A DNA stretch of 64,000 bases from Capsaspora owczarzaki ATCC 30864 (taxonomy: Eukaryota; Opisthokonta; Filasterea). The stretch is taken from contig NW_011887292.1 of NCBI RefSeq assembly GCF_000151315.2, positions 1,645,689-1,709,688 of the forward strand, written 5' to 3'. A program made the position numbers and the translations under genes. Every line of letters starts with the position of its first letter. Positions within the stretch are counted from its first letter, which is position 1. Below the pieces are notes generated by a model. The model had not been told where the DNA came from. It ran no database searches and saw nothing but the letters and a program-made list of their open reading frames with translations. This document shows, piece by piece, positions 1,912 to 45,541 of the stretch.

Positions 1912-4900
1912 ATGGTTGTCCACGCCGCGTCGTCGAGCCATTGTCGTGCGCTCGTCGCTGTATCTGCTTTACTGCTCGCAGTGTGTGTGCCGCTCGCCTC
2001 TGCCGCTCTTTCTCCGTACTTCCGCCCGCCAGCCTTTCCCATCGTTGCGAACAACCCGTACTGGTCCATTTGGTCTTTATCGGATGCTCCTGGCAGGTCG
2101 TGGACCGAACACGCGTAAGTTTTGCTCATGGTTGATGCAGCTGTTCTGCCGTGTGGTTTTTTGTGTTTTGGTTCCTTCTTTTTCTTGATCTTTCTCTTTA
2201 TCGTTATCTTCCATTATCGTCTTCTTCTTCTTCTTGTTTCCTCCACTTTGTCATCTTATTGCTAGTATTGGAGAGCTGCGAACATGCAGGGATGAACAGT
2301 TGGCAGAGCCTCTTGCAGTTTACTTGTCCGGATCGGCAATTTTCGAGGCTTGCCATTCATATCTGCTTCTCCTCCCCCTAATTCGTCTCCCCGACTCTGC
2401 TTTCAATGTACTCCTGTCATTGACCGAGTCAAATCACGTCCTGCACCGTTTGTTTGCATGCATCTAGAAACGGCGGCGTTCAAGCAATGACTGGCTACGC
2501 CAAAGTCGATAGCACCTACTATCGCTTTCTGGGAGTGCCGTCTGTCGGTGGCACAGGCATCATTGTGGATCCCATTTCGACCCAGGTTTGTTTGATTAGC
2601 GCCCTTTGAGCTTGCACGATCGGCAAAAGTACCCCGACTTACGGAACGATCTGTTTCACTGGCGAATAGATTTTGCCGCTGAGCACCGTTTACACCTTCA
2701 AGCTCGGAACGGCCATCCAGATGGTGTTGACTTTCTCAAACCCAGCACAACTCGATGACGATACCTTGGTCTCGGTGCCAGTGACGTATGTCACGTTCGC
2801 GCTCTCGTCCCTTGATGGCGCATCGCACACTGTCAGTCTCTACATTGATCACTCGGCCGAGCTTGTTGTAGCGGATCCTGCTACGTCAGTTAATTGGAAC
2901 GATGTTTCAACCAGCGCCAACACAATTATCCGCATGGGCGCCAATGTACAGTCAGGTCAGATTTCTGGTCGAGATGCTTCATTGATTCAAAAACGGTATT
3001 GCACTCATTCAACGAAATTACAGTTTTAAGCGGCTCCACGAATGACCGTATCAACTGGGGTAATGCATACATGGCTGCCCCCAAGGAAACTGCCCTCGTA
3101 GGCACTGTCAGTTCCGATGCCAACTGCAGAAACGCATTTATCAGTGGTGCTGCTGCACCAGCTTTGCAAACTGGTCCTCGAAATGGCAACGATAACTGGC
3201 CTGTGTTGTCACTGAGGTGGAACGGCCTGAGTGTGACCTCCACGACAAGTGTCACTAAATTTATGACCCTTTCCTATGACAATGTCAACACGATGAACTT
3301 TTTCTCCAAGGTTCTCCCTCCGCTCTGGTCGACAAAGATTGGCACGATCCTGACGGTGATTGCACAGATGCACACCAACTATGCCACCTACATGAGTGCC
3401 ATCAACGCCCGCAACACTGCCCTTGTGACTCTGTTCGACAAGCGCGGCTCCAACTCTTACACCACCTTGCTGTCGCTCGTGTATCGCCAAGTCACTGCAT
3501 CGACCGAGCATGCGATCGACACGACCACACAACAGCATTACGTCTTTATGAAAACGTTCGCCACCAGCTCGACCAATGGTCCGGTCAACGGGCAGGTCAA
3601 CGCGGTGACCACCATGTTCTTTGCCTCTCCGTTCTACTTGCTGCTGAATCCCTCGCTTGTGCCAAAGATGCTGCTTCCTGTGCTCAAGTACGCCAACAGC
3701 GAGACCTCGTTCCCGTACACGCGTAGCTGGGTAAGTGTTGCTGTTGCAGCTGCAGTTGTAGTTTGTGTTTCTTGCAGCAGCTTTGCTCAGCTTGGCATGT
3801 ATGGTTGGTTGCACGATATTCTGCAGGCTCCTTCGCATCTTGGCCAGTGGCCGCTCTGCACTACCGCGGTTCCCACAACCTACGACATGCCAGTCGAGCA
3901 CACGGCCAACATGCTGATCATGATCACGGCTGCCGCCCAGCGTGGTGCTCCGCTGACCTATCTGCAACCGTACTGGCCGCTCCTGACCACCTGGGCAAAC
4001 TACTTGGTCGCCAGCCTGCCTTTCCCAACGAGCCAGCTCTTTGTGGACTCGTATGGAACAGCGTCTGCGAACAACGTCAACCTTGCCATGAAGGGTGCGA
4101 TAGGAGTTGGCGCGTACAGTCTGCTGCTCAGCCTGACTGGCAACACCACTGCTGCGGCCCAATACATGAACTCGGCCACAAGCTTTGCCAGCCAGATTCT
4201 GGCGCAGTCCTTTTCGACGGACCATTATCTGCGCGAGAAAGGCGCGGTGAGTTTCTCCTCGTTTTTGCGTTTTCGAGCTGAATGGGGATTCTGTCGTTGT
4301 GTTCACTGACGAAGGGGGTTGGTTGCATTGCCATTGCCAGGCTGCAACCACCTGGTCTCTCAAGTACAATCTGCTGTTCGACCGCGTGCTCAAGCTCGGA
4401 CTGTTTGCGGATGCCGTCATGACGACGGAACAGACCTTCTACACGCCCAAAATGGGCGCGTATGGTTTGCCGGTTGACAGCACAACCAGCGCCAACGGTC
4501 GTGTTGGCGAGCAGGGCTTTGTTGCGGCAACCGGCACAACTGCTCAGTTTACATCCATTTTTGACAAGCTCTTCCTCTATGCCAACACCACCGCGAGTCG
4601 TCTACCGCTGGGTGGTAAGTAGTTTGTTACGAATGGGGGGGGGTGCCTGCGGTTTGTATATTCACTCACTGTGACTGCAATTTTGGCCCTCAGATTACTA
4701 TGTTGTTGGATCAGGCGCCAATGTGGACTTCCGAGCAGGCGCCTTTGTCGGTGGCCTCTACGCTCGCGAGCTTCTCGAGGATGTTCGGGCAGTGGCCTCG
4801 ACCTCTTCGATTTCTGCTCGCGCAGCCTCGACTGTGTCTGCTGCAACGGCTTCGTCGGCGTCGCTTGCATCGTTTTCCTCGGCTTCCATTGCTTCTGCAT

Positions 4901-5991
4901 CGTCAGCTTCTCTCGGTTCTGCCAGCTCGGCCTCGATTGCGTCTGCGTCCATTGCATCTTCACAATCTGCGTCTATCGCATCTGCCAGCTCAGCTTCTGC
5001 CGCCTCCGTCGCATCGTCGGCATCCGCGTCCATTGCATCCGCTAGCTCAGCATCCGACGCGTCCTTGGCGACGGCGTCGTCGGAGGCTTGGCAAACTTTT
5101 GTCGCGTCCGAGGCCTCTGCAGCGTCCGATGCGTCTGTAGCGTCGTCGGCGTCGGCGACTGTTGCATCTGCCAGCTCAGCATCAGATGCATCTGTTGCAA
5201 CTGCCAGCTCGGCATCTGATGCATCGGTGTCATCGGCCAGCTTGGCATCTGATGCGTCCGACGCCTCTGTCGCGTCGTCGGTGTCGGCGTCGGTTGCATC
5301 GGTCAGCTCGGCATCCGATGCATCCGTTGCCTCTGTCGCATCTGACGCCACTGTCGCGTCGGACGCCTCGGTTGCGTCGTCGGTGTCGGCATCGGTTGCA
5401 ACTGTCAGCTCGGCATCCGATGCATCCGACGCCTCTGTCGCGTCCACTGCGTCTGCGTCTCTTGCAACTGTCAGCTCGGCATCCGGTGCGTCTTTGGCGT
5501 CGGCTTCGTCGGCAGCGTGGCAAACCTCCGCAGCGTCCGCGGCGTCCGCAGCGGCAGCAGCAGGGAGCGACTCAGATTCCACCCCGATCATCATTGGTGT
5601 TGTGGTCGGCGTGGTCTGCCTGCTTTTGATTGTCCTGGTGATTGTTCTGGTTCTTCGTCGCCGTCGTGTTCGGAAGCCCGCAAGCGCGCCAGCATTCGAC
5701 TCCACGGCTCCATTCTTCCAGGTTCCAAGCTCCATTGTTGCAAATTCTACGTTCGACCCGTCCTATGACGATCTGCACACCCCGTCAGAGCCAAACTATG
5801 ACACGCTGCAAAATGTCTCTGGCGCCGAAACCAAATCTGAAGCCGCAGTCGTGTCTGAGAGTACGTATGACGAGCTGAAAGGCGCCCATTCCGGAGCGCC
5901 ACAGTCTGAAACCTTGTACTCGGAACTGCGCACGTCGCATCCCCCGCAGGATTCGCCAACACAAGAAGACGCGCTGAAAGCGACCGACTGA
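1912..5991 (+). CDS. GtaA-like ectodomain receptor with ITAM-type tail (paralog 1)
   Basis: Exons: 1912-2114, 2468-2585, 2670-2955, 3024-3730, 3827-4246, 4341-4614, 4694-5991, giving 1101 residues with all phases consistent. A signal peptide covers about residues 1-30. The ectodomain follows the fungal/bacterial glutaminase A (GtaA; DUF4964-DUF5127-DUF4965-DUF1793) order, with family landmarks such as FRPPAFPIVANNPYWSIWS, the MPVE..ANMLIM segment, TTWSLKYNL and YGLPVDS. A Ser/Ala-rich stalk (about 700-965) leads to a single membrane helix (about 968-990) followed by RRRR, so the protein is type I. The tail of about 110 residues has tyrosine motifs YDDL (Y1027), YDTL (Y1038), YDEL (Y1061) and YSEL (Y1078); the first pair has exact ITAM spacing (YxxL-x7-YxxL). 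The usual PHDLG and MPVEE family motifs read PSHLG and MPVEH, so enzymatic activity is doubtful. The role as a surface receptor is inferred from architecture only. Confidence 0.85.
3281..4943 (+). repeat. Homogenised segment, copy 1 (partner 7941-9607)
   Basis: From 3281 to 4943 the sequence matches 7941-9607 almost base for base, including three introns. I counted only a handful of substitutions (for example at 3481, 4344 and 4302) plus small changes in the G run of the last intron. Outside these limits the two genes are clearly diverged although still homologous. This is the pattern of gene conversion, or of a very recent partial duplication, between the tandem genes. Confidence 0.9.
4800..5560 (+). 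repeat. Ser/Ala-coding degenerate repeat (receptor stalk)
   Basis: A degenerate tandem repeat built from GCATC/GCGTC-type units encodes the SAS, DAS and VAS motifs of the extracellular stalk in paralog 1. The stalk is much longer here than in paralog 2, where the equivalent part ends near 9650. The composition (Ser, Ala, Asp, Val) suggests an extended and possibly O-glycosylated linker. Length differences between alleles would be expected. Confidence 0.8.
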
Positions 5992-6485
5992 ACGGTTGGA
6001 CTGTCAATTTAATTGTTTGCATTCCGTGTTGAATTTTTGGCCGATTTCTTCTGCTTGCTTTTTCTGTTTGCTTCTTTTGTATGGTTTTGCCAAGTTATTT
6101 GCATGCTGTTTTCGTGATGACTGGACATTTGCTTTCGCGGCTGCCTTGACGGTCTCTCGCTACAAGTGCAGACTCCTTTCAGCTTGTTCGTCCAGCTCAC
6201 GAGGTCCTCAGTCCCACCCTTGAAAATAAAATCCAATATTTCGCCCGTACCGCTACGTCCAACATTTTGCCCCGCCTTCCCACCCCCCCCCCTGCAAAGC
6301 GTTGTATTGTGTGCTTGAGCGTGGACGTTGTGATTTGCAGTATTTTGAGGTTGTTTTGGCGTATTTTCGATTTTTTTTTACTAATTTACGACCAGTCCTC
6401 GACCGTCGGGTCAAACCCGTTTGATTAGTGCTCCGTGAACGAACGTCAACCCTCCTCAGGAAGAACAGATTCCACTGCGCTGATA
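5992..6485. promoter_or_regulatory. Spacer between tandem receptor-like genes
   Basis: This 494-bp spacer should hold the 3' UTR of paralog 1 and the promoter of paralog 2. An AATAAA hexamer lies at 6225-6230, about 235 bp past the stop codon, and is a candidate polyadenylation signal. A C run sits near 6281-6292 and a T run near 6372. No gene is seen. Confidence 0.5.
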
Positions 6486-9400
6486 ATGTTCACGGCTCGG
6501 TGCATACGTCGCGCGTTACTCCTCGCTGCTGTGGTGCTGACTGCGGGCCGGCTGATCGTCATGCCAGCTGCAGCCACTGTTTTGACGTTTCGCCCGCCAG
6601 CAGTCCCCGTCCTCGCCAACAATCCGTACTTTTCCATGTGGTCGGCAGCAGACTCTCCCGGAAGGTCGTGGCTGACTCACGCGTAAGTTTGGTTGTGTTT
6701 GTGCGCGCCGCGGTCGTGTGTGCGGGTTTCGCTGCGCAAGTGCAAAAAAGTCGGCTGATTGTGGTGGTTTTTTTTTTTTTTTTGGTTTTTTTTTTTTTTT
6801 TGGTTTGTTTGATTGTTTTTGAGCTTTTGGAAGACGGAGGGAGTCGACAGTGTCCACTGTGCCCTGTGGTACCGTTGGGGTTGAGCGCGAAAGATGCTTG
6901 TATTGAGGTGGTGGTCGGTGGTTGAAGAGACGCGTTGAATACAAAATGAGCGCACATTTTTACAGCCAAACAACAACAACAACAACAACAACAAGAACAA
7001 CAACAAGAACAAACATGCTGTTGATTCAATGAATGCGCAAGCCTTCGTCGTCGGCTTCGCTCTTCGTATGACGGCTCACAGCCAGGTTTGCATTTGCGTG
7101 AAAAAAAAAACCAACAAAGAAACGATGGAATTCAAGCCATTGCCGGATATGCCAAGGTCGATGGTGCAAATTTCCGCTTCATGGGACAGCCGTATCAAGG
7201 GGGTTCGCAACTGGCGACAAATCCCATCTCTGTGCAGGTATGTTTTCGGAAGATGTCGACTTTTGAAGCAGAGATGGTCAAGTGGAGCCACACACACACA
7301 CACACCATTTGCCATGTGTATGTTGCAGGTTTTACCCCTGAGCACGATCTACACGTACACGCTCGGAGCCGTTCGGATGCTGTTGACATATTCCACCCCA
7401 GCACTACTCGACGATGACGCGCTGATGTCTGCTCCAGTGACTTATTGCACATTTGAGCTGTCGTCGATGGACGGCGCACCGCACACGGTTGATTTGTATA
7501 TCGATCACTCGGCTGAGGTTGTGGTCACCTATGCGTCGAATACCTCGGTGACTTGGGACGACTTGTCGACATCCGCCAGCACAATTCTTCGTATGGGCGC
7601 AAGTGTACAATCCGGTGAGACTCGTGCAAATGAGGGTGCTTCAATGAGGATTGTGATTGCGCTCATTAGATTTGCCCTCACAGTTTTCAGTTCAACGGAC
7701 GACCGCATTAACTGGGGCTACTTTTACTTGTCGGCCCCTAAGGAGGCCGCGCTCGTAGGCACTGTCAATACCGACACCAATTCCAGAGATGCGTTCGTTG
7801 ACGGCAACCCAGCACCAATTTTCGATACGAACAAGCCTCGCTTGGGCAGTGATAACTGGCCCGTGCCGTCCTTGAGGTGGACTGGCCTGGCTGTGAGTCC
7901 CACGGCAAATGTCACTCGATTTGTGACTCATGCCTACGACAATGTCAACACGATGAACTTTTTCTCCAAGGTTCTCCCTCCGCTCTGGTCGACAAAGATT
8001 GGCACGATCCTGACGGTGATTGCACAGATGCACACCAACTATGCCACCTACATGAGTGCCATCAACGCCCGCAACACTGCCCTTGTGACTCTGTTCGACA
8101 AGCGCGGCTCCAACTCTTACACCACCTTGCTGTCGCTCGTCTATCGCCAAGTCACTGCATCGACCGAGCATGCGATCGACACGACCACACAACAGCATTA
8201 CGTCTTTATGAAAACGTTCGCCACCAGCTCGACCAATGGTCCGGTCAACGGGCAGGTCAACGCGGTGACCACCATGTTCTTTGCCTCTCCGTTCTACTTG
8301 CTGCTGAATCCCTCGCTTGTGCCAAAGATGCTGCTTCCTGTGCTCAAGTACGCCAACAGCGAGACCTCGTTCCCGTACACGCGTAGCTGGGTAAGTGTTG
8401 CTGTTGCAGCTGCAGTTGTAGTTTGTGTTTCTTGCAGCAGCTTTGCTCAGCTTGGCATGTATGGTTGGTTGCACGATATTCTGCAGGCTCCTTCGCATCT
8501 TGGCCAGTGGCCGCTCTGCACTACCGCGGTTCCCACAACCTACGACATGCCAGTCGAGCACACGGCCAACATGCTGATCATGATCACGGCTGCCGCCCAG
8601 CGTGGTGCTCCGCTGACCTATCTGCAACCGTACTGGCCGCTCCTGACCACCTGGGCAAACTACTTGGTCGCCAGCCTGCCTTTCCCAACGAGCCAGCTCT
8701 TTGTGGACTCGTATGGAACAGCGTCTGCGAACAACGTCAACCTTGCCATGAAGGGTGCGATTGGAGTTGGCGCGTACAGTCTGCTGCTCAGCCTGACTGG
8801 CAACACCACTGCTGCGGCACAATACATGAACTCGGCCACAAGCTTTGCCAGCCAGATTCTGGCGCAGTCCTTTTCGACGGACCATTATCTGCGCGAGAAA
8901 GGCGCGGTGAGTTTCTCCTCGTTTTTGCGTTTTCGAGCTGAATGGGGATTCTGTCGTTGTGCTCACTGACGAAGGGGGTTGGTTGCATTGCCATTGCCAG
9001 GCTTCAACCACCTGGTCTCTCAAGTACAATCTGCTGTTCGACCGCGTGCTCAAGCTCGGACTGTTTGCGGATGCCGTCATGACGACGGAACAGACCTTCT
9101 ACACGCCCAAAATGGGCGCGTATGGTTTGCCGGTTGACAGCACAACCAGCGCCAACGGTCGTGTTGGCGAGCAGGGCTTTGTTGCGGCAACTGGCACAAC
9201 TGCTCAGTTTACATCCATTTTTGACAAGCTCTTCCTCTATGCCAACACCACCGCGAGTCGTCTACCGCTGGGTGGTAAGTAGTTTGCCACGAAAAGGGGG
9301 GGGGGTGTGCCTGCGGTTTGTATATTCACTCACTGCGACTGCAATTTTGGCCCTCAGATTACTATGTTGTTGGATCAGGCGCCAATGTGGACTTCCGAGC

Positions 9401-10253
9401 AGGCGCCTTTGTCGGTGGCCTCTACGCTCGCGAGCTTCTCGAGGATGTTCGGGCAGTGGCCTCGACCTCTTCGATTTCTGCTCGCGCAGCCTCGACTGTG
9501 TCTGCTGCAACGGCTTCGTCGGCGTCGCTTGCATCGTTTTCCTCGGCTTCCATTGCTTCTGCATCGTCAGCTTCTCTCGGTTCTGCCAGCTCGGCCTCGA
9601 TTGCGTCGGCGTCGAGTGAATCTGCATCAATCGCGACACTGGCTTGGTTGACCTCTGCGGCATCAGCGGCTTCTGCCAATGCTGCGGGTGGTGATGATGG
9701 CAACGCTGCTCCCGCCATCATCGGTGCTGTTGTGGGAGCCCTCTGCCTTCTTCTCATTATCCTGGTCGTTGTGCTACTCCGCCGCCGCCGTGCCAGGAAG
9801 ACACGTGAAATTGTGGCTGATCGGGATAGCGCATGTGAACTTTACCAAATTCCGACCGAGGTGAAAAATATCCTCGCTAGTTCGCACTACGACACACTGG
9901 CCAAGCCAAGAGGCAGCGCGGATCTGCAAAGCGGCAACACGGAAGACGGCGAGGCCAAGCTCGCAACAACCTCCGAGTATGAGCTGCCGGCACGCGCTAC
10001 CCATTACTCGGCCATCGTGGGCGGCTCTTCTTCAACCAGTGAGGCAACCTACGCGTCGCCTAGTGTGTCCTCGTATGCTGCGTTGAATCACGAACCCAGC
10101 GCGGGCGGTGATGAGGGTGCTTATTCCGTTCTGCAGCAAGACCTAACGATTGCTCCCAAAGAAGCTGGATACGCGCGCCCCGAGCGAGAGCGTGCATCGT
10201 CCCAATCCTCAGGCACGGGCGACAACGATTATGCTGCTCTCAGCCACCAGTAA
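6486..10253 (+). CDS. GtaA-like ectodomain receptor with multi-tyrosine tail (paralog 2)
   Basis: Exons: 6486-6682, 7120-7237, 7329-7614, 7684-8390, 8487-8906, 9001-9274, 9358-10253 (965 residues). Exons 2 to 6 have exactly the same lengths as in the upstream paralog, and every intron phase matches. ATG 6486 is chosen because it opens a signal peptide (MFTARCIRRALLLAAVVL). The layout is the same: GtaA-like ectodomain, a short Ser/Ala stalk, a membrane helix (about 786-808) followed by RRRR, and a tail of about 157 residues. The tail has tyrosines in YQIP (830), YDTL (845), YELP (875), YSAI (884), YASP (899), YAAL (907), YSVL (923), YARP (939) and YAAL (959). YAAL907 and YSVL923 are spaced YxxL-x12-YxxL, within the ITAM range. 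The tail aligns poorly with paralog 1 beyond the shared motif type. A signalling role through SH2 proteins is an inference. Confidence 0.85.
7941..9607 (+). repeat. Homogenised segment, copy 2 (partner 3281-4943)
   Basis: This is the near-identical counterpart of 3281-4943, offset by 4660 bases, rising to 4664 after a small length change in the G run of the last intron. It covers most of exon 4 through the start of the stalk. The introns at 3731-3826 and 8391-8486 appear identical, which coding selection alone would not maintain. Confidence 0.9.
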
Positions 10254-10476
10254 CCGGATTGGTTTGTCCGTGGTCAGACATGGTGTGTCATCACAGTTTC
10301 TCGTTTCGTCGTGAGGCCATTGGTTCGCCGTTTCTGTCGATGCATCTCGCTTGTGTGCTGTTGCTCGTGCGGGTTTTTTCCTTGAATTGTCTCATTTTTT
10401 TTTTTTACTTTGTAATGAACCGCGAGATCAATCGTTGCATTTGTCCACTGTTGTACCTGAATCTTTATTCAAGTCC

Positions 10477-10767
10477 GTAGTTTTCCCGCCATTCGAAGCT
10501 TCTAGGCGGTGGAAAGCAAAACGAAACAAAACAAAAATTGAAAAAGACTGACGACATTGATTACATTGCATTGTGCATGCAGACAAGGGTAAAGTCTTAT
10601 GGCATTCATGTGAGTTCAAAAAGAAAGCCAAAAGGTTCGGGCGAACGAGGTCAAAGCTACTGCTGTAGATCTATCTCACTTTGAGCAAGAGCCGCTTTTG
10701 TTGCTCAATGTCGCATCTCGAGCAACTTTCAACAATGTGCTGCTGCCGATGAGACATGTTTGAGCTC
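10477..10767 (+). repeat. Dispersed repeat, copy 1
   Basis: About 290 bp that recur, inverted, at 59561-59840 with an estimated 90-95 % identity by eye. The shared block begins at GTAGTTTTCCCGCCATTCGA and ends at TTTGAGCTC. In both copies a CT microsatellite directly follows the TTTGAGCTC end. No open frame, terminal inverted repeat or clear target-site duplication is visible, so the class is unknown; a short non-autonomous element with a microsatellite tail would fit. Confidence 0.85.
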
Positions 10768-10770
10768 TTG

Positions 10771-10957
<187 letters not shown>

Positions 10958-11376
10958 GTATCTGTATTGTGCGTTTTTGAGTTTTGTTTTTCAATTTCAC
11001 ATTTGCTGAGATGTTTCTGCGTTGTCGTTTCTTGAAGAACAAATGTTCTAACAAAATGATTGTTCAAGCAAAACGCTCATACAAATACAAGAACCCAAAA
11101 GGCGCACCTCATACTTCCACGCGTGCCTCAGCGAGTAGTTCCGACGACGGCGGAATCGGCTCGTACAAATCGCCAAACGTATGCTGGGCGTCATCATACA
11201 GAAACCGGCGCAACGGCTGCGGCGCGCGGAAGAGCGCCCGGCGAGCACTATTCAACAGCGACATCTTGGGGGGAGTGACTGCCAAAAAAAAACGAAAATA
11301 GCAAAGCAGCCCTCGTTGTCAGCAAGCAAACAGCACAACCGCCCAAAGCCATGTCAACCAGCGGCATGCTCACTCA

Positions 11377-13554
11377 TCAGCACTCACGCATGGCAATCCA
11401 GACTTGCGCCTCATCCTCCATCAGTATTTCCGTCGCTGAGTTTTCGGGTACTCCGCGCTGCAGCGAGGTTGGACCGACCGCAGAGCGCAACCGAGCAAGT
11501 AATTCTTCTCGGCTATAGTTGACTGGAATGCCAAGTAGCCGCAAAAGGAGAACACAACTGGCCGAACGTAACTCGCAAGCTGTTTCGAGCAAACACAACT
11601 CGCTCACAAGCGCAGCCGCATCGTGCTCCAGTCGCGACAAGGCGTAAATAAGCAGCTCGACGTTTTGGCAGACAAACTGATCGGGGCGCTCAGGCCGAAC
11701 AGACGCACAAAGCAACAGAAGCCAGGGTGCGCCATTGCCGTGGTCAATGAGCATGCGAATGGCCGCAGCGTCCTCGCTGCGGGCGACGAAAGCCGCAGCG
11801 AACTGCGCACCTCGGTAAATGCTCTTCTCGGTGTCCGAGAGTCCAGCAAGGTCGTACGATTTGCGGTTGGCGAACAAGTCAAACTCGGTTCCGTCGGCAG
11901 CGGGAAGGGCGCTGGGCAGTGGCAGCCCGTACTCGACAACCGCGAGTATGAAACGAGTTGTTTCACCCGACGAGATTGGCCTGGATGCCTCGGGCAGTCG
12001 CCGGGGAATTAACTCGGGCCACAGATGCATATCAAGCTCGGATATGGGGATGGATTGCAGCAGCAGTCGGAAGACCTCCAGATCGCGTGCGAGGAGAGCG
12101 TGTTGCAGTGCAGCTCGTGCTCCTCTCCGCGCCCCGTATGACAGCAGCAGCGGGACGATGCGCGTACTCTTGGCTGCCAGGCGAGGCAGCAGATCGACGA
12201 GATGTGGTCTTGTACTTTTTCCAGAAGTCGGATTATAGTACCGAGCCGGCACCTGAGCGTCGATGGGCGCGCCGAGCTCAAGCAACGCCTGAAGGAAGTC
12301 AGCGCGTGGGATGTCGTGCTCAAGGGTGTACACAGTGAGCTCCCGGGCCGTGACGACGCCGCCAGCCGCGACAAGGAAGCGGAGCATGTCGCAGTCGAGG
12401 TTGCGAACGACCCCATCAAGAAGAAAACGGGTCGGTGTCGCCCCAAGTTCCACCATCAGCCGGGCCATGTCGACGAGGCCATACCGCACTGCGGCCCAAA
12501 GGCCGAGCTCGACGGGCATGCCGCACTCCGTCACCAGGATGCGGATCACATCAGCATGGCGCCGCAGCACCGCGAGATGCAGGAGCGTGACATGGCTTTG
12601 GCAGCGCGAAATGCAACTCGTGAGTAGCTCGCCGGTCAGCACAGAGGCGAGCGTGCGGTCAGCGTCAGTCTTGCTCCTGGGCAGATAATACCACCACCTC
12701 CTTGAGCGCTCATCGAGTGGCGTGTTATCAAAACACACTCGCTGGACGATAATGCTCAACACTTCCGCAGCTGGGATATCGCTCTTTGACTGAAAGTTGA
12801 GGTTCGGCAGCGCCTGGCGCAGCGGAGCGCCGCTGTCAACAAGTGCCGACAGCTCGCCGAGCTTCTGTCTCAGGATGGGGATGTCACCGTGCCAGACAGC
12901 CAGGAAGAGGTGCCGGACGAGGAGGGGGCAGGTCAGCTGGTATGTCTGCCACTCGTCCCAGTCGAATCGCGGGTAGAGGCGCAAATGCGGCAGAGCGTAC
13001 ACATCATGCGCTTCGTTTGTGCCGTCGATCATGCCTTCGTCCAAGGGCAGACCGAGCTGGTTGAGGCATTCGACAATCTCAGCGAGCATCTGTTTCGGAG
13101 CGACATCGCGCCCCAGCTTCAAAAGTTGAGTGGGAACATCCGCAGTCTGGATGAGGTAGCGATCGAATGGTAAGCGGCCGGCGTGCCAGTAGTAGGCGAG
13201 CACGCGCAAGGCCATCAATGCCAGGTCAGCGTACGAGCGTTCGATGCCGTCGTCCCAATTACCATGATTCTTGCTCAGGAGAAACTCTTCGGGTCTCTTG
13301 ACACGAATGAGCGTGCGGCTGTGTGGATACCACGATGTGGGCGATGCTGCGAGCAGCTCGGTCGTCGGAGTGGCGAGGCTCGCGGCCACAACTGCTGGTG
13401 ATGGGGTGTCGAGTTGAGGGAGCGGCTGTGTCCCTTGAGCCTGCGTCCCTTGAGCCTGCGTCCCTTGAGCCTGCGTCCCTTGAGCCGTGGTTGTGGTCGA
13501 GGAGGAGGCAGATGCGGCAGCGTTACTTGCAGTAGAAACATGAAAATGCGCCAA
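11377..13554 (-). CDS. Ankyrin-repeat-like protein, function unknown
   Basis: One uninterrupted frame of 725 codons ends in TGA at 11377-11379. The middle section (roughly residues 310-520) has helical pairs of ankyrin type, with the signature TLLHLAVLRRHADVIRILV followed by weaker units. The C-terminal half is also helical and Leu/Ala-rich. The N-terminus is low complexity, with four copies of a GTQAQ unit coded by a 15-bp tandem repeat (about 13430-13487). The frame opens just after a stop and has no ATG before residue 114 (ATG at 13213-13215), so the true start is unresolved: an upstream exon, a non-AUG start or an internal start are possible. It could be an F-box or SOCS-like adaptor, but no such motif is seen. 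Confidence 0.65.
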   Translation of the reverse strand: MAHFHVSTASNAAASASSSTTTTAQGTQAQGTQAQGTQAQGTQPLPQLDTPSPAVVAASLATPTTELLAASPTSWYPHSRTLIRVKRPEEFLLSKNHGNWDDGIERSYADLALMALRVLAYYWHAGRLPFDRYLIQTADVPTQLLKLGRDVAPKQMLAEIVECLNQLGLPLDEGMIDGTNEAHDVYALPHLRLYPRFDWDEWQTYQLTCPLLVRHLFLAVWHGDIPILRQKLGELSALVDSGAPLRQALPNLNFQSKSDIPAAEVLSIIVQRVCFDNTPLDERSRRWWYYLPRSKTDADRTLASVLTGELLTSCISRCQSHVTLLHLAVLRRHADVIRILVTECGMPVELGLWAAVRYGLVDMARLMVELGATPTRFLLDGVVRNLDCDMLRFLVAAGGVVTARELTVYTLEHDIPRADFLQALLELGAPIDAQVPARYYNPTSGKSTRPHLVDLLPRLAAKSTRIVPLLLSYGARRGARAALQHALLARDLEVFRLLLQSIPISELDMHLWPELIPRRLPEASRPISSGETTRFILAVVEYGLPLPSALPAADGTEFDLFANRKSYDLAGLSDTEKSIYRGAQFAAAFVARSEDAAAIRMLIDHGNGAPWLLLLCASVRPERPDQFVCQNVELLIYALSRLEHDAAALVSELCLLETACELRSASCVLLLRLLGIPVNYSREELLARLRSAVGPTSLQRGVPENSATEILMEDEAQVWIAMREC

Positions 13555-42654: not shown

Positions 42655-45541
42655 ATGGACAAGCTCGATGCGACGAATCTGTTTGAGCTGCTTGGGTGAG
42701 CTTTGCTTTTTTTTTTTTGTTGTTGTTTGTTCCCGCTTCGTGCAGCTGGTCAGTTCGTTCTCGCATCGCGCGTTGCAGGCAAATCAGCGTCCGCTCTGTT
42801 TGATTGAATGGCTGGGGTTTGAGTGCGGAGCAAGCAGAACATCAATGAGCGACAAAGACAAAGGAAAAACGAAAAAAAAAAAAGAAAAAAAAAAGGAAGT
42901 CTGCGTTCTGCCCCCCACTTTCCCTCAGAGAAAGACAACTCGACGGCTCGACGGCATGACAATCACATGCTTGGAACGCACCACCCTCCAAACACGAAGC
43001 AAGTGGGTAGGACAGGGAGACATTTGGCGACCGCGAGCGAACGAGAGAAAAGCACTGATTTTTTTTTTCGTTTTTTTTTTTTTTTTTTTTGGCGCGCTTT
43101 CGCTTTTGCCCGCGTTCGTCCAACGTCGACACAACACGCTTTGACACATATCAGTTCCTTGTTATTGGAGGAAGCAGCATTCTCACTTTGGCCGGGCGGA
43201 CCCTGGATCACCCTTGTCCGCGATCGGAAAAAACCTCTCCTTTGCTTTTGTTCTCTAATCATTCTGACTTGTCGCTTGGAATCATCAATGCAACAGGGAC
43301 GACGCGCAGGTGTTCACCGCATCGCAGGACTATCTGATTGACGAGACAATCGATGCACATGGATATGGTGCGATTGACCCGCGGACAGTCCTTCCAGCAG
43401 CAGCAGCAGCAGCAGAAGAGCGCTTCCCAGCAGAACGCAAGTGGCGACGGCGCTGCTGCTGCTGGTGCTGGTGCTGGTGCTGGTGCTGGTGCTGCTGCCG
43501 GGGCTGACGCCGACGCCGACTCAAAGGGATCGCATGACCCCGCGGATCTCAATTCAACACTGTTGCTGGGGGATTCGCGTCTTCCACAAGCCTACTCCAA
43601 TCCATCTTCCCGCCCAATCTTGGAACGACACCCACCCAACTATTTGCAGAGTTTGGCGAGACCACGGGCACCTCGCTTCTCAACATGTCCGGATTGCGCG
43701 GGTTTAACACGCCGTCGTCGTCCAGCAGCCACCACAGCCACCACAGCCACCACAGCAACAGCAGCAACAGCAGCTTTCTAGGCCGGCCGCGGACGCTTCC
43801 AGTGCAAAAGCCTCTCTCCATCCTGCAAGGCAGTGCGCCCGAGCCGTTTGTCGAGCCGCTGACGATCGGCGAGCCAATCTACGCGTCGCCAAATTCGCTC
43901 GGAGAGGCAGGCTTCCTGCTCTCGGTCGACGTTTCGAACGCCCGCCACTCGGCCATCTCGTCGGCCTACTCGTACTCTGAGGCTCTTGGCACGCTGTTTA
44001 CCAACTTTGACGTGGGCGTGCCGTTTGTCTTTCGAGTGGCCAAGCCGCCGCCCACCGTGCATCCGCTCCACATTCGCGCCACGCTCCGCTACAAGCAAAT
44101 GCAGTTCATGAAGGAGCCCGTGCGGCGCTGCCCGCTGCACCTGTCGATTGACAGCGACCTCCATCTCTTGCGTGCGTGCGACCAGGACACGGTCTACTCG
44201 GTCGACTACCACGGTCGCGCATCGATTGCCGTTCCGTTCACTCCGACCATGCAGCCGCTCGTCCCCGTGCTCATCAATACTCTCAAGGACGCGCATGTTC
44301 CCTTGGTCACGCGGCATCCGTCCAGCACTCACGGCGAGGCGTCCCGAAGCAACCCGTACGTCTGCTGGTCGATGACGTGGTTTCTCAAGTTTATGTGTTA
44401 CACGTCCTGCACGGGCGGCATGAACCGTCGCGCCACTGAAATTGTCTTCACCCTCGAGGACTCTCAAGGACTCATTTACGGTGCCCAGGCCCTCGATTTC
44501 CGAACCTGTGCATCGCCGAGTCGCGACCGCAAGCAGCTCGAAAAGTCTCCGCCGCCGATTCCCGTTGGCTCCATCATTCCTCCCGAAGTTGTGACTGCTC
44601 ACCAAGGGTCTGCCCTGGCCGATCCGGGCACCACAGCGTCCACCCCGACACGGCGGAGTGCGCAACCAGTTGTGCCCTCCCCGGTTGTTGCTGCTTCTCC
44701 TACGCCTGCGCCCGGACTGCTCTCGTCCGGGCGAAAAGCCGGGGCGATTCCCGTGACAGGGGTTACACCACGCCCTCTCGTTGTCATTCCCGCTGCCTCT
44801 TCGGCGCAGACCGCGCCGACCGCGCCTGCAGCTGCGATCGCCGCTCCATCCCCAGCTCTTACTGAGGCACACGCAGCGCCAACAACGCTGCTTCGTGACC
44901 GCAGTATAACAGCCATTGCTAAGCGACGTCATGCCGACGACGACGACGAGATTTTCACCATCAGCATTCGGGGACGTGACAATTTTGTGCTCGTTTCCAA
45001 AATCGTCGAGGGTCTGAACGCATTGGCGCAGCGAACCTCTGCAGCCGTTGCCTCAAAGCTGGAGCGCACCACCACCCCGCCCGTCGTCGAGGACGATCCA
45101 AGCGCGCCACCTGCGCTGTCGGCACTGGACACGCTCGCCCAAGCGGCCGCTGGTCACGTCCGCGCCCCAGACGAGGCTGCACCTGCCACGCACGAGCGCA
45201 AGCGCGCACGCTTGGCTGACGACGACACCAAAGCGGGCCGCGCCACGGAGGCGTCTGGCGAGTCCATTTCAACGTGGCTGGGCAGTTTTGGCTTGAAGCA
45301 GTACGCTGTAAACTTTGCCAAGAATGGGTACACGAACACGCCTCAAATTTTGAACTTGTGTGAGGACGATCTCAAGTCCATCGTCCGCGTCAAAGCGCAT
45401 CGCGTTCGAATCGCTGCCGCCATCGACGAGCTTGCAGACGCGCAAGCCGAGCCAACATCGACTCCGCCCATGTCCTCTGACGGTGATGTGACGGTTGTTC
45501 GCATGACCATTCGTCGCACCACCAGCTCCACCGCCAAGTAG
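42655..45541 (+). CDS. p53/p63/p73-family transcription factor with SAM domain
   Basis: The first exon is 42655-42695 (MDKLDATNLFELLG); a second begins at 43297 (DDAQVF...). The splice pattern between 43297 and about 43650 is unresolved, but one frame is open from about 43540 to the TAA at 45541. The DNA-binding domain (about 43835-44545) keeps the zinc ligands as RRCPLH (Cys 44129, His 44138) and FMCYTSC (Cys 44396 and 44408). It also keeps the DNA contacts GGMNRR (Arg248/249 equivalents at 44426) and FRTCASPSRDRK (Arg273 and Arg280 equivalents). A tetramerisation segment (FTISIRGRDNF, about 44945-45035) matches the human FTLQIRGRERF. A SAM domain (STWLGSFGLKQYA, about 45266-45430) ends the protein, as in p63/p73. 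The linker is Pro/Ala-rich. It is a sequence-specific transcription factor by family; target genes are unknown. Confidence 0.92.

Follow-up and report, generated by a model that had tools for sequence, protein, structure and literature searches.

Two adjacent genes of the single-celled holozoan Capsaspora owczarzaki ATCC 30864 encode predicted kinase-less receptors in which a GtaA ectodomain, shared with an intact receptor tyrosine kinase, is joined to a tail dense in tyrosine motifs. They occupy positions 1912-10253 of a 64,000-nucleotide stretch of contig NW_011887292.1 (hereafter the window; C1:1645689-1709688), gene 1 opening with its ATG at 1912 and the stop codon of gene 2 closing at 10253. 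We propose that both proteins are SH2-docking co-receptors with a pseudoenzyme ectodomain, which gene conversion would keep matched in ligand to a receptor kinase; we give this reading a probability of about 0.6.

Architecture and tyrosine motifs of the two receptors

The features of the two gene models are as follows:

1912..5991, + strand: gene 1, kinase-less GtaA receptor, 1101 residues (spliced model without internal stop, GT-AG introns)
1912-2114, 2468-2585, 2670-2955, 3024-3730, 3827-4246, 4341-4614, 4694-5991, + strand: the seven exons of gene 1 (spliced model)
1912..2004, + strand: gene 1 signal peptide, 31 residues (judged by eye, no predictor)
3827..4246, + strand: gene 1 exon 5, containing the MPVEE-type family motif as MPVEH
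4789..5586, + strand: gene 1 Ser/Ala stalk, 73% Ser+Ala, no Cys
5587..5655, + strand: gene 1 predicted transmembrane helix, mean hydropathy 3.77 (best 19-residue stretch)
5656..5988, + strand: gene 1 tail, RRRR then YDDL, YDTL, YDEL, YSEL (translated model)
6486..10253, + strand: gene 2, kinase-less GtaA receptor, 965 residues (spliced model without internal stop)
6486-6682, 7120-7237, 7329-7614, 7684-8390, 8487-8906, 9001-9274, 9358-10253, + strand: the seven exons of gene 2 (spliced model)
6486..6575, + strand: gene 2 signal peptide, 30 residues (judged by eye, no predictor)
9453..9716, + strand: gene 2 Ser/Ala stalk, 70% Ser+Ala, shorter than that of gene 1
9717..9779, + strand: gene 2 predicted transmembrane helix, mean hydropathy 3.33 (best 19-residue stretch)
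9780..10250, + strand: gene 2 tail, RRRR and nine tyrosine motifs, five YxxL/I and four YxxP (translated model)

The original prediction, made from the sequence alone, had described a signal peptide, GtaA-like ectodomain, Ser/Ala stalk, single helix, RRRR and tyrosine tail, and this layout was confirmed for both genes, with the signal peptides judged by eye. The domain search that it had called for returned all three GtaA Pfam families above their cut-offs in both proteins (PF16335 at 1e-87 for gene 1 and 8e-87 for gene 2, together with PF17168 and PF16334), in a scan of gene models with an earlier exon 5 acceptor. The order DUF4964-DUF5127-GtaA (PF16334, PF17168, PF16335) was found in both genes and in their paralogues. 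In the present models exon 5 is entered through the acceptor CTGCAG, whose last base is 3826 in gene 1 and 8486 in gene 2; the alternative CTCAG was ruled out, as the soluble paralogue reads W-APHHLG at this place and the kinase paralogue lacks CTCAG. A PDB sequence search gave no match for gene 2 and one chance-level match (E 0.86) for the soluble paralogue, so that no solved template is available by sequence.

The Pfam scan assigned no kinase family to either protein, and none of the PF07714 places listed lies in the window. The + frames of 5991-6486 and 10253-13000 contain neither HRDxA nor DFG, so that splicing of the tails to a downstream kinase exon was not supported. A single last exon (4694-5991 in gene 1, 9358-10253 in gene 2) encodes the end of the GtaA domain as well as the stalk, helix and tail; because the domain end sits in this exon, skipping it would give no clean soluble form.

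The tails carry four and nine tyrosines, as originally counted, and the predominance of YxxL/I exceeds chance in permutation of the remaining tail residues (20,000 permutations): YxxL/I accounts for 4/4 motifs of gene 1 (p 5e-5) and for 5/9 of gene 2 (p 5.5e-4), the nine of gene 2 being YQIP, YDTL, YELP, YSAI, YASP, YAAL, YSVL, YARP and YAAL. When position +3 was scored for L, I, V or P, all 13 of the 13 tyrosines qualified (gene 1, p 0.0018; gene 2, 0/20,000 permutations), the residues actually present being L, I or P. An immunoreceptor tyrosine-based activation motif (ITAM) is defined as YxxL/I-x6-12-YxxL/I in a cytoplasmic tail. This spacing occurs in both proteins, as YDDL-x7-YDTL in gene 1 and YAAL-x12-YSVL in gene 2.

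The ectodomain is shared with a receptor tyrosine kinase

The genome (27.46 Mb, 29 contigs) was searched with PF16335, and the 13 exon-wise matches obtained fall on four genes, namely the window pair and two further loci, L009 and L010. L009 lies on the same contig (C1) at 3.71 Mb, about 2 Mb from the window genes. Its model has 15 exons and 1531 residues, arranged as signal peptide, GtaA, Ser/Ala, leucine-rich repeats (LRR_8), a Cys-rich stretch, stalk, helix, RRRR and tyrosine kinase, the last matching PF07714 (PK_Tyr) at 1e-83 with the motifs HRDLAARN, DFG and APE present.

The ectodomains of gene 1 and L009 are identical at 663 of 681 residues (97.4%). Genes 1 and 2 share 86.0% overall, falling to 63% in the N-terminal ~255 residues. 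At the DNA level two stretches stand out:

2056..4790, + strand: gene 1 stretch alike to L009, from mid exon 1 to the stalk, 93-100% DNA identity per 150-column window, introns included
3213..4971, + strand: block common to gene 1 and gene 2 (7873-9635 in gene 2), 97.9% DNA identity over 1764 aligned bases, introns included

Within the block, identity is 97-100% in windows from ~3296 to 4930, and similarity is lost again in the stalk and tail. Genes 1 and 2 have a synonymous divergence (dS) of 1.29 in the N part (252 codons; ratio of replacement to synonymous divergence, dN/dS, 0.20) and 0.013 in the block (the next 422 codons; dN/dS 0.08, ~4 synonymous changes and one replacement change). This contrast in dS rules out a recent tandem duplication of the whole gene. 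Between gene 1 and L009, dS is 0.027 in the N part and 0.059 in the block part. Because the boundary is so sharp within one gene and the introns are included, we favour gene conversion limited to the ectodomain; the identity pattern is of the type that conversion between paralogues leaves. For genes 1 and 2, dN/dS is low both in the block and in the N part, which shows constraint, and purifying selection is seen in most comparisons.

A paired-receptor layout had been proposed for the two neighbours. Here ectodomains alike at 97.4% (gene 1/L009) and 86.0% (gene 1/gene 2) are attached to intracellular parts that differ, and the case is stronger than first put, one ectodomain of near-identical sequence being that of a receptor tyrosine kinase. 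Between the two neighbours themselves, near-identity holds for the 422-codon block and not for the ectodomain throughout. The juxtamembrane starts of the three proteins are alike by eye (FDSTAPFFQVP in gene 1, RDSACELYQIP in gene 2, KDSTGPIYQEA in L009). The receptor kinases L056, L058 and L009 have in common the juxtamembrane start KDSxGPIYQEA(V/I)EM.

A genome-wide class of kinase-less receptors with tyrosine tails

With the helix and tail of gene 2 as query, 123 places were found in the genome at E up to 10; 44 of these lie just upstream of a listed PF07714 place on the same strand, and 79 do not. We read 80 of the 123, namely 76 of the 79 without a kinase (the three weakest being omitted) and four with one. 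Sixty-seven kinase-less tails of at least 80 residues and with a closed frame were kept, window genes included; the 13 exclusions were four receptor kinases, five short tails, two that ran beyond the end of the stretch, one with N and one without a helix. Weak cases among the 67 are L084 and L085, which are identical and may read into an intron, and L075 and L117, which have few tyrosine motifs. For 20 loci, 1.5 kb of 3' sequence was read: HRDxA/DFG was absent downstream of 16/16 kinase-less loci and present in 4/4 receptor kinases. For the remaining 51 of the 67 tails, kinase absence is taken from the closed tail and the PF07714 places listed.

At least three tyrosines are present in 64 of the 67 tails, with about eight per tail on average. 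Among the 395 tyrosines of 49 non-redundant tails, position +3 is L, I, V or M in 53.6% (shuffles 15.5%, maximum of 200 shuffles 19.3%) and P in 21.3% (shuffles 9.2%, maximum 12.5%); a hydrophobic excess of this kind is absent at +1, +2 and +4 to +6. That the hydrophobic pattern is an artefact of the gene 2 tail query was not supported by a control set of 21 tails, chosen by match range (identical copy L085 omitted), whose match to the query is confined to the helix and no more than 26 residues of tail: hydrophobic residues stand at +3 in 52.1% (shuffle 16.6%, maximum 25.3%). The spacing YxxL/I-x6-12-YxxL/I occurs in 34/67 tails (shuffle mean 0.89, maximum 5).

Tyrosine is also the best conserved residue in paralogous tails within the genome. 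Across 19 disjoint pairs of paralogous tails it is kept in 240/275 comparisons (87%), against 65% for all residues and 16/36 for F; a repeat with identity scoring gave 238/270.

These tails bear on two other accounts. The window genes could encode decoy or dominant-negative receptors, which in the manner of truncated receptor kinases would take ligand away from L009 or form dimers with it, and whose tail would be of little weight. An ectodomain near-identical to that of an intact kinase gene would suit this, as would the similar juxtamembrane starts. However, a pure decoy needs no tail, yet the tail tyrosines are the best conserved residues in paralogous tails and the +3 position is strongly patterned, and we consider this account unlikely.

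The second account takes the proteins as uptake (scavenger) receptors, with YxxL/I/V serving as endocytic sorting signals for AP-2. The consensus of such signals, YxxPhi, has Y at position 0 and a bulky hydrophobic residue at +3. Tyrosine followed by a hydrophobic residue at +3 is the strongest part of the tail signal and fits this consensus, but P at +3 (110 of 538 tyrosines, and four of nine in gene 2) is not explained by it, and some eight tyrosines per tail seem, in our judgement, more than uptake requires. The near-absence of F and M at +3 (3/538 each) says little about YxxPhi; for F it is uninformative because F makes up only 0.7% of tail residues. An uptake role is accordingly rather improbable.

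Further kinase-less/kinase pairs were sought by comparing 14 kinase-less loci (window genes excluded; the open frame around the helix with 1.5 kb upstream) with 23 kinase open reading frames representing 20 distinct genes. L049, with Sushi repeats and no kinase, is 86.8% identical over 441 residues to L053, which has Sushi repeats and a kinase; kinase-less L054 is 94.3% identical over 106 residues to the kinase gene L040; and the likeness of L060 to L058 is weaker (39% over 357 residues). Six loci (L043, L046, L048, L050, L055 and L059) share mainly a short stretch of 36-125 residues, Cys-rich by eye, with several kinases, and the remaining five of the 14 gave no kinase match at E 1e-6.

Almost identical kinase-less tails were also observed for L064 (C29:8400-9300, on a 10 kb contig) and L065 (C1:3475350-3476250), and for L094 and L095 (both C4); recent duplication or conversion may be continuing in the class. 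Three single-pass receptors of the same build, L075 (C2:737800-738720), L089 (C2:2074850-2075760) and L115 (C7:398300-399200), have an SH3 domain in the tail (best-model scores 5e-11, 2e-10 and 2e-13, respectively), and L089 also has repeated YDPV motifs. At L082 (C17:592500-593430), also a matching place, the downstream part reads N, and the visible juxtamembrane part looks like the same kinase subfamily as the receptor kinases above.

The receptor GtaA domain is probably a pseudoenzyme

L010, on contig 14, is modelled as a soluble GtaA protein of 685 residues, ~46% identical to the receptors. It ends in ...VGGLYSRELFP, where the receptors read GGLYAREL and continue into the stalk. We compared these proteins with 22 bacterial and archaeal GtaA homologues (L121-L142; five of 14 plasmid records found, and 17 genome contigs), in which 84 columns are conserved at 95% or more. 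Each of the three receptors (genes 1 and 2 and L009) is changed in 33 of these columns, and L010 in 15. Twenty columns are changed in all three receptors yet kept in L010, among them E376, D387, H430, E452, D502, R614, K619, D621, W622 and R672 (soluble numbering). The changed positions include the second E of MPVEE (now MPVEH), the T/D/G of TDDFxG and the R....K.DW cluster.

The pattern is suggestive rather than proof, but the receptor GtaA domain is probably a pseudoenzyme whose ancestral catalysis was lost. This goes beyond the original prediction, which had recognised the GtaA ectodomain; that ectodomain now looks like a degraded enzyme.

The proteins might instead be membrane-anchored glutaminases or glycan-processing enzymes with incidental or regulatory tyrosines. 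All three GtaA Pfam domains score above cut-off, 51 of the 84 conserved columns are kept in gene 1, and a Bacteroides homologue stands between GH76 and GH92 genes. The 20 family-wide conserved positions, many of them charged or aromatic, that are changed in three receptors and kept in the soluble paralogue nevertheless make an active enzyme improbable.

The homologue in question, L122, is a GtaA/DUF4965 gene on a Bacteroides finegoldii plasmid (NZ_OY725911.1, 42128-44987), and its GH76/GH92 neighbourhood is a hint that it may act in the breakdown of glycans and not in hydrolysing glutamine.

SH2 proteins as candidate readers of the tails

Signalling through SH2 proteins had been suggested from the tails, and that part of the suggestion which concerns the presence of SH2 genes stands: the genome holds at least 34 SH2 matches, some of them half-exons. 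At least 176 PF07714 matches were obtained with 134 of 545 candidates scored, and 150 places are listed. Candidate readers include a PLC-gamma-like protein (PLC-X, two SH2, SH3, PLC-Y), a locus at C13:292722-294496 with two SH2 domains followed by a tyrosine phosphatase (SHP-type by position) and L144, an SH2-SH3-SH2-PH-C2-like stretch that is RasGAP-like by eye.

Seven kinase loci among the 150 listed PF07714 places have an SH2 domain within 4 kb on the same strand, one each (one of them split in halves). Two SH2 matches at C9:345598-346966 (345598 and 346637) lie ~1 kb apart on one strand. No tandem-SH2 kinase of the Syk/ZAP-70 type was seen among the at least 34 SH2 matches and the 150 kinase places listed, the partner domains of the C9 pair being unexamined. 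SHP- or PLC-gamma-type readers are therefore the better supported docking partners, ahead of an ITAM route to Syk. Of the ITAM-type tails originally claimed, the spacing motif is present in both proteins and the strict ITAM sense is not supported; true ITAM receptors acting through a Syk-like kinase are thus very improbable, despite Y..[LI]-x6-12-Y..[LI] in both window tails and in 34 of the 67 tails read, given that the seven SH2-bearing kinase loci among the places listed have one SH2 each.

A proposed docking co-receptor mechanism

In the docking co-receptor reading, a ligand would bind the GtaA pseudoenzyme ectodomain, acting as sensor at the cell surface, and kinase and kinase-less receptors with the same ectodomain would gather. 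The tails would then be phosphorylated in trans at YxxL/I/V/P by the receptor kinase, most likely L009, and/or by a Src-like kinase. A phosphorylated tail would serve as a multivalent SH2-docking strip that recruits SH2 proteins such as the PLC-gamma-like, SHP-like and RasGAP-like ones. Gene conversion would keep the ectodomains alike and leave the tails to diverge, so that an identical or similar ligand would be seen with and without a kinase. The sequence itself shows the architecture, the ectodomain held in common with an intact receptor kinase, the conversion-type identity pattern, the tail statistics, the altered conserved residues and the SH2 genes; surface location, partnership, ligand, phosphorylation, signal direction and loss of catalysis are inferred, the steps of the mechanism from the architecture.

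Several observations weigh against this proposal. In the N part, dN/dS between gene 1 and L009 is 0.98 (20 changes), which shows no constraint, and the ligand sites of the two proteins may therefore differ. Leucine-rich repeat and Cys-rich modules are present in L009 and absent from genes 1 and 2. Loss of catalysis is judged from residue conservation, and the homologue sample behind the conserved columns is small, its members having been selected through two peptide patterns or because they lie on plasmids; several of the 17 genome-contig homologues are close relatives of one another, and one frame is partial. The soluble paralogue is itself altered in its 15 columns, including one D to H. In the tails, weaker preferences occur elsewhere (hydrophobic residues at -1, 26.8% against a shuffle maximum of 19.5%, and P at -2 and +6), so part of the +3 pattern may reflect shared ancestry of motif blocks. 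The P component fails the 21-tail control, where P at +3 is within shuffles (17.0%, maximum 17.6%).

More broadly, and tentatively, we suggest that a unicellular holozoan has a split receptor system, in which many kinase-less receptors bear several phosphotyrosine sites and part of this set is matched in ligand to receptor tyrosine kinases by conversion of the whole ectodomain. If true, a kinase and docking-only receptors, the latter with interchangeable tails, would read one ligand between them; the logic of paired receptors would not have been invented by animal immunity, and the ligand-binding part of the window genes would be a retired enzyme.

Relation to known receptor systems

Signalling through phosphotyrosine is characteristic of animals. 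What is known of its forerunners in protists concerns mainly the kinases and SH2 proteins, and less so the substrates. The locus and its class name dozens of candidate phosphotyrosine substrates with a clear site grammar, and provide kinase/receptor pairs open to testing. Receptor tyrosine kinases of filastereans were reportedly described by Suga and colleagues in 2012; the window genes resemble L009, L056 and L058 in helix, RRRR and juxtamembrane start, and have no kinase. With the GtaA glutaminase family (PF16335) the window genes share the domain order, and differ in their added membrane anchor and tail and in the changed conserved polar positions.

According to a 2016 study, it is still not known what FAK-, Src- and Abl-type kinases phosphorylated before the metazoans (PMC5043372). 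The same study describes choanoflagellate membrane proteins with cytoplasmic YxxP repeats, peptides of which bind a Crk-type SH2 domain of Monosiga, and mentions that M. brevicollis, S. rosetta and Capsaspora have membrane proteins of which subsets carry YxxP repeats (PMC5043372). Those proteins resemble ours in being membrane proteins of single-celled holozoans with repeated tyrosine motifs in the tail. They differ in that YxxP is the motif and a handful of proteins appear in the main text, whereas here YxxL/V/I outnumbers YxxP, dozens of genes are concerned, and kinase-less genes have ectodomains in common with receptor kinases.

Siglec-11 and Siglec-16 are paired immune receptors kept alike by gene conversion, and the likeness extends to near-identical ectodomains homogenised by conversion and joined to different signalling parts (PMC5701461). 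The window genes differ from them in having a GtaA fold rather than an Ig-like one, and in that the third member is a receptor tyrosine kinase. Kek-6 and LRIG1 are kinase-less co-receptors of receptor kinases, likewise with a receptor-kinase-like ectodomain and no kinase; the window tails differ in being dense in tyrosine motifs. Neither GtaA receptors nor protist pairs of kinase-less and kinase genes with a common ectodomain were described in the titles and abstracts searched, which does not show their absence from print. The locus and its class suggest that the placing of one ectodomain on different signalling parts began in a single-celled holozoan, held in common with animals or arrived at in parallel.

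Other features of the window and genome

The window gave no match in the phage DNA search, in Rfam at gathering cut-offs or in the tRNA scan. A long run of CT dinucleotides lies just 3' of gene 2, at ~10775-10955. Further along, at 43538-45538 on the + strand, one frame contains a p53 DNA-binding domain, a tetramerisation motif and a SAM domain, and a fascin gene was also seen in the genome.

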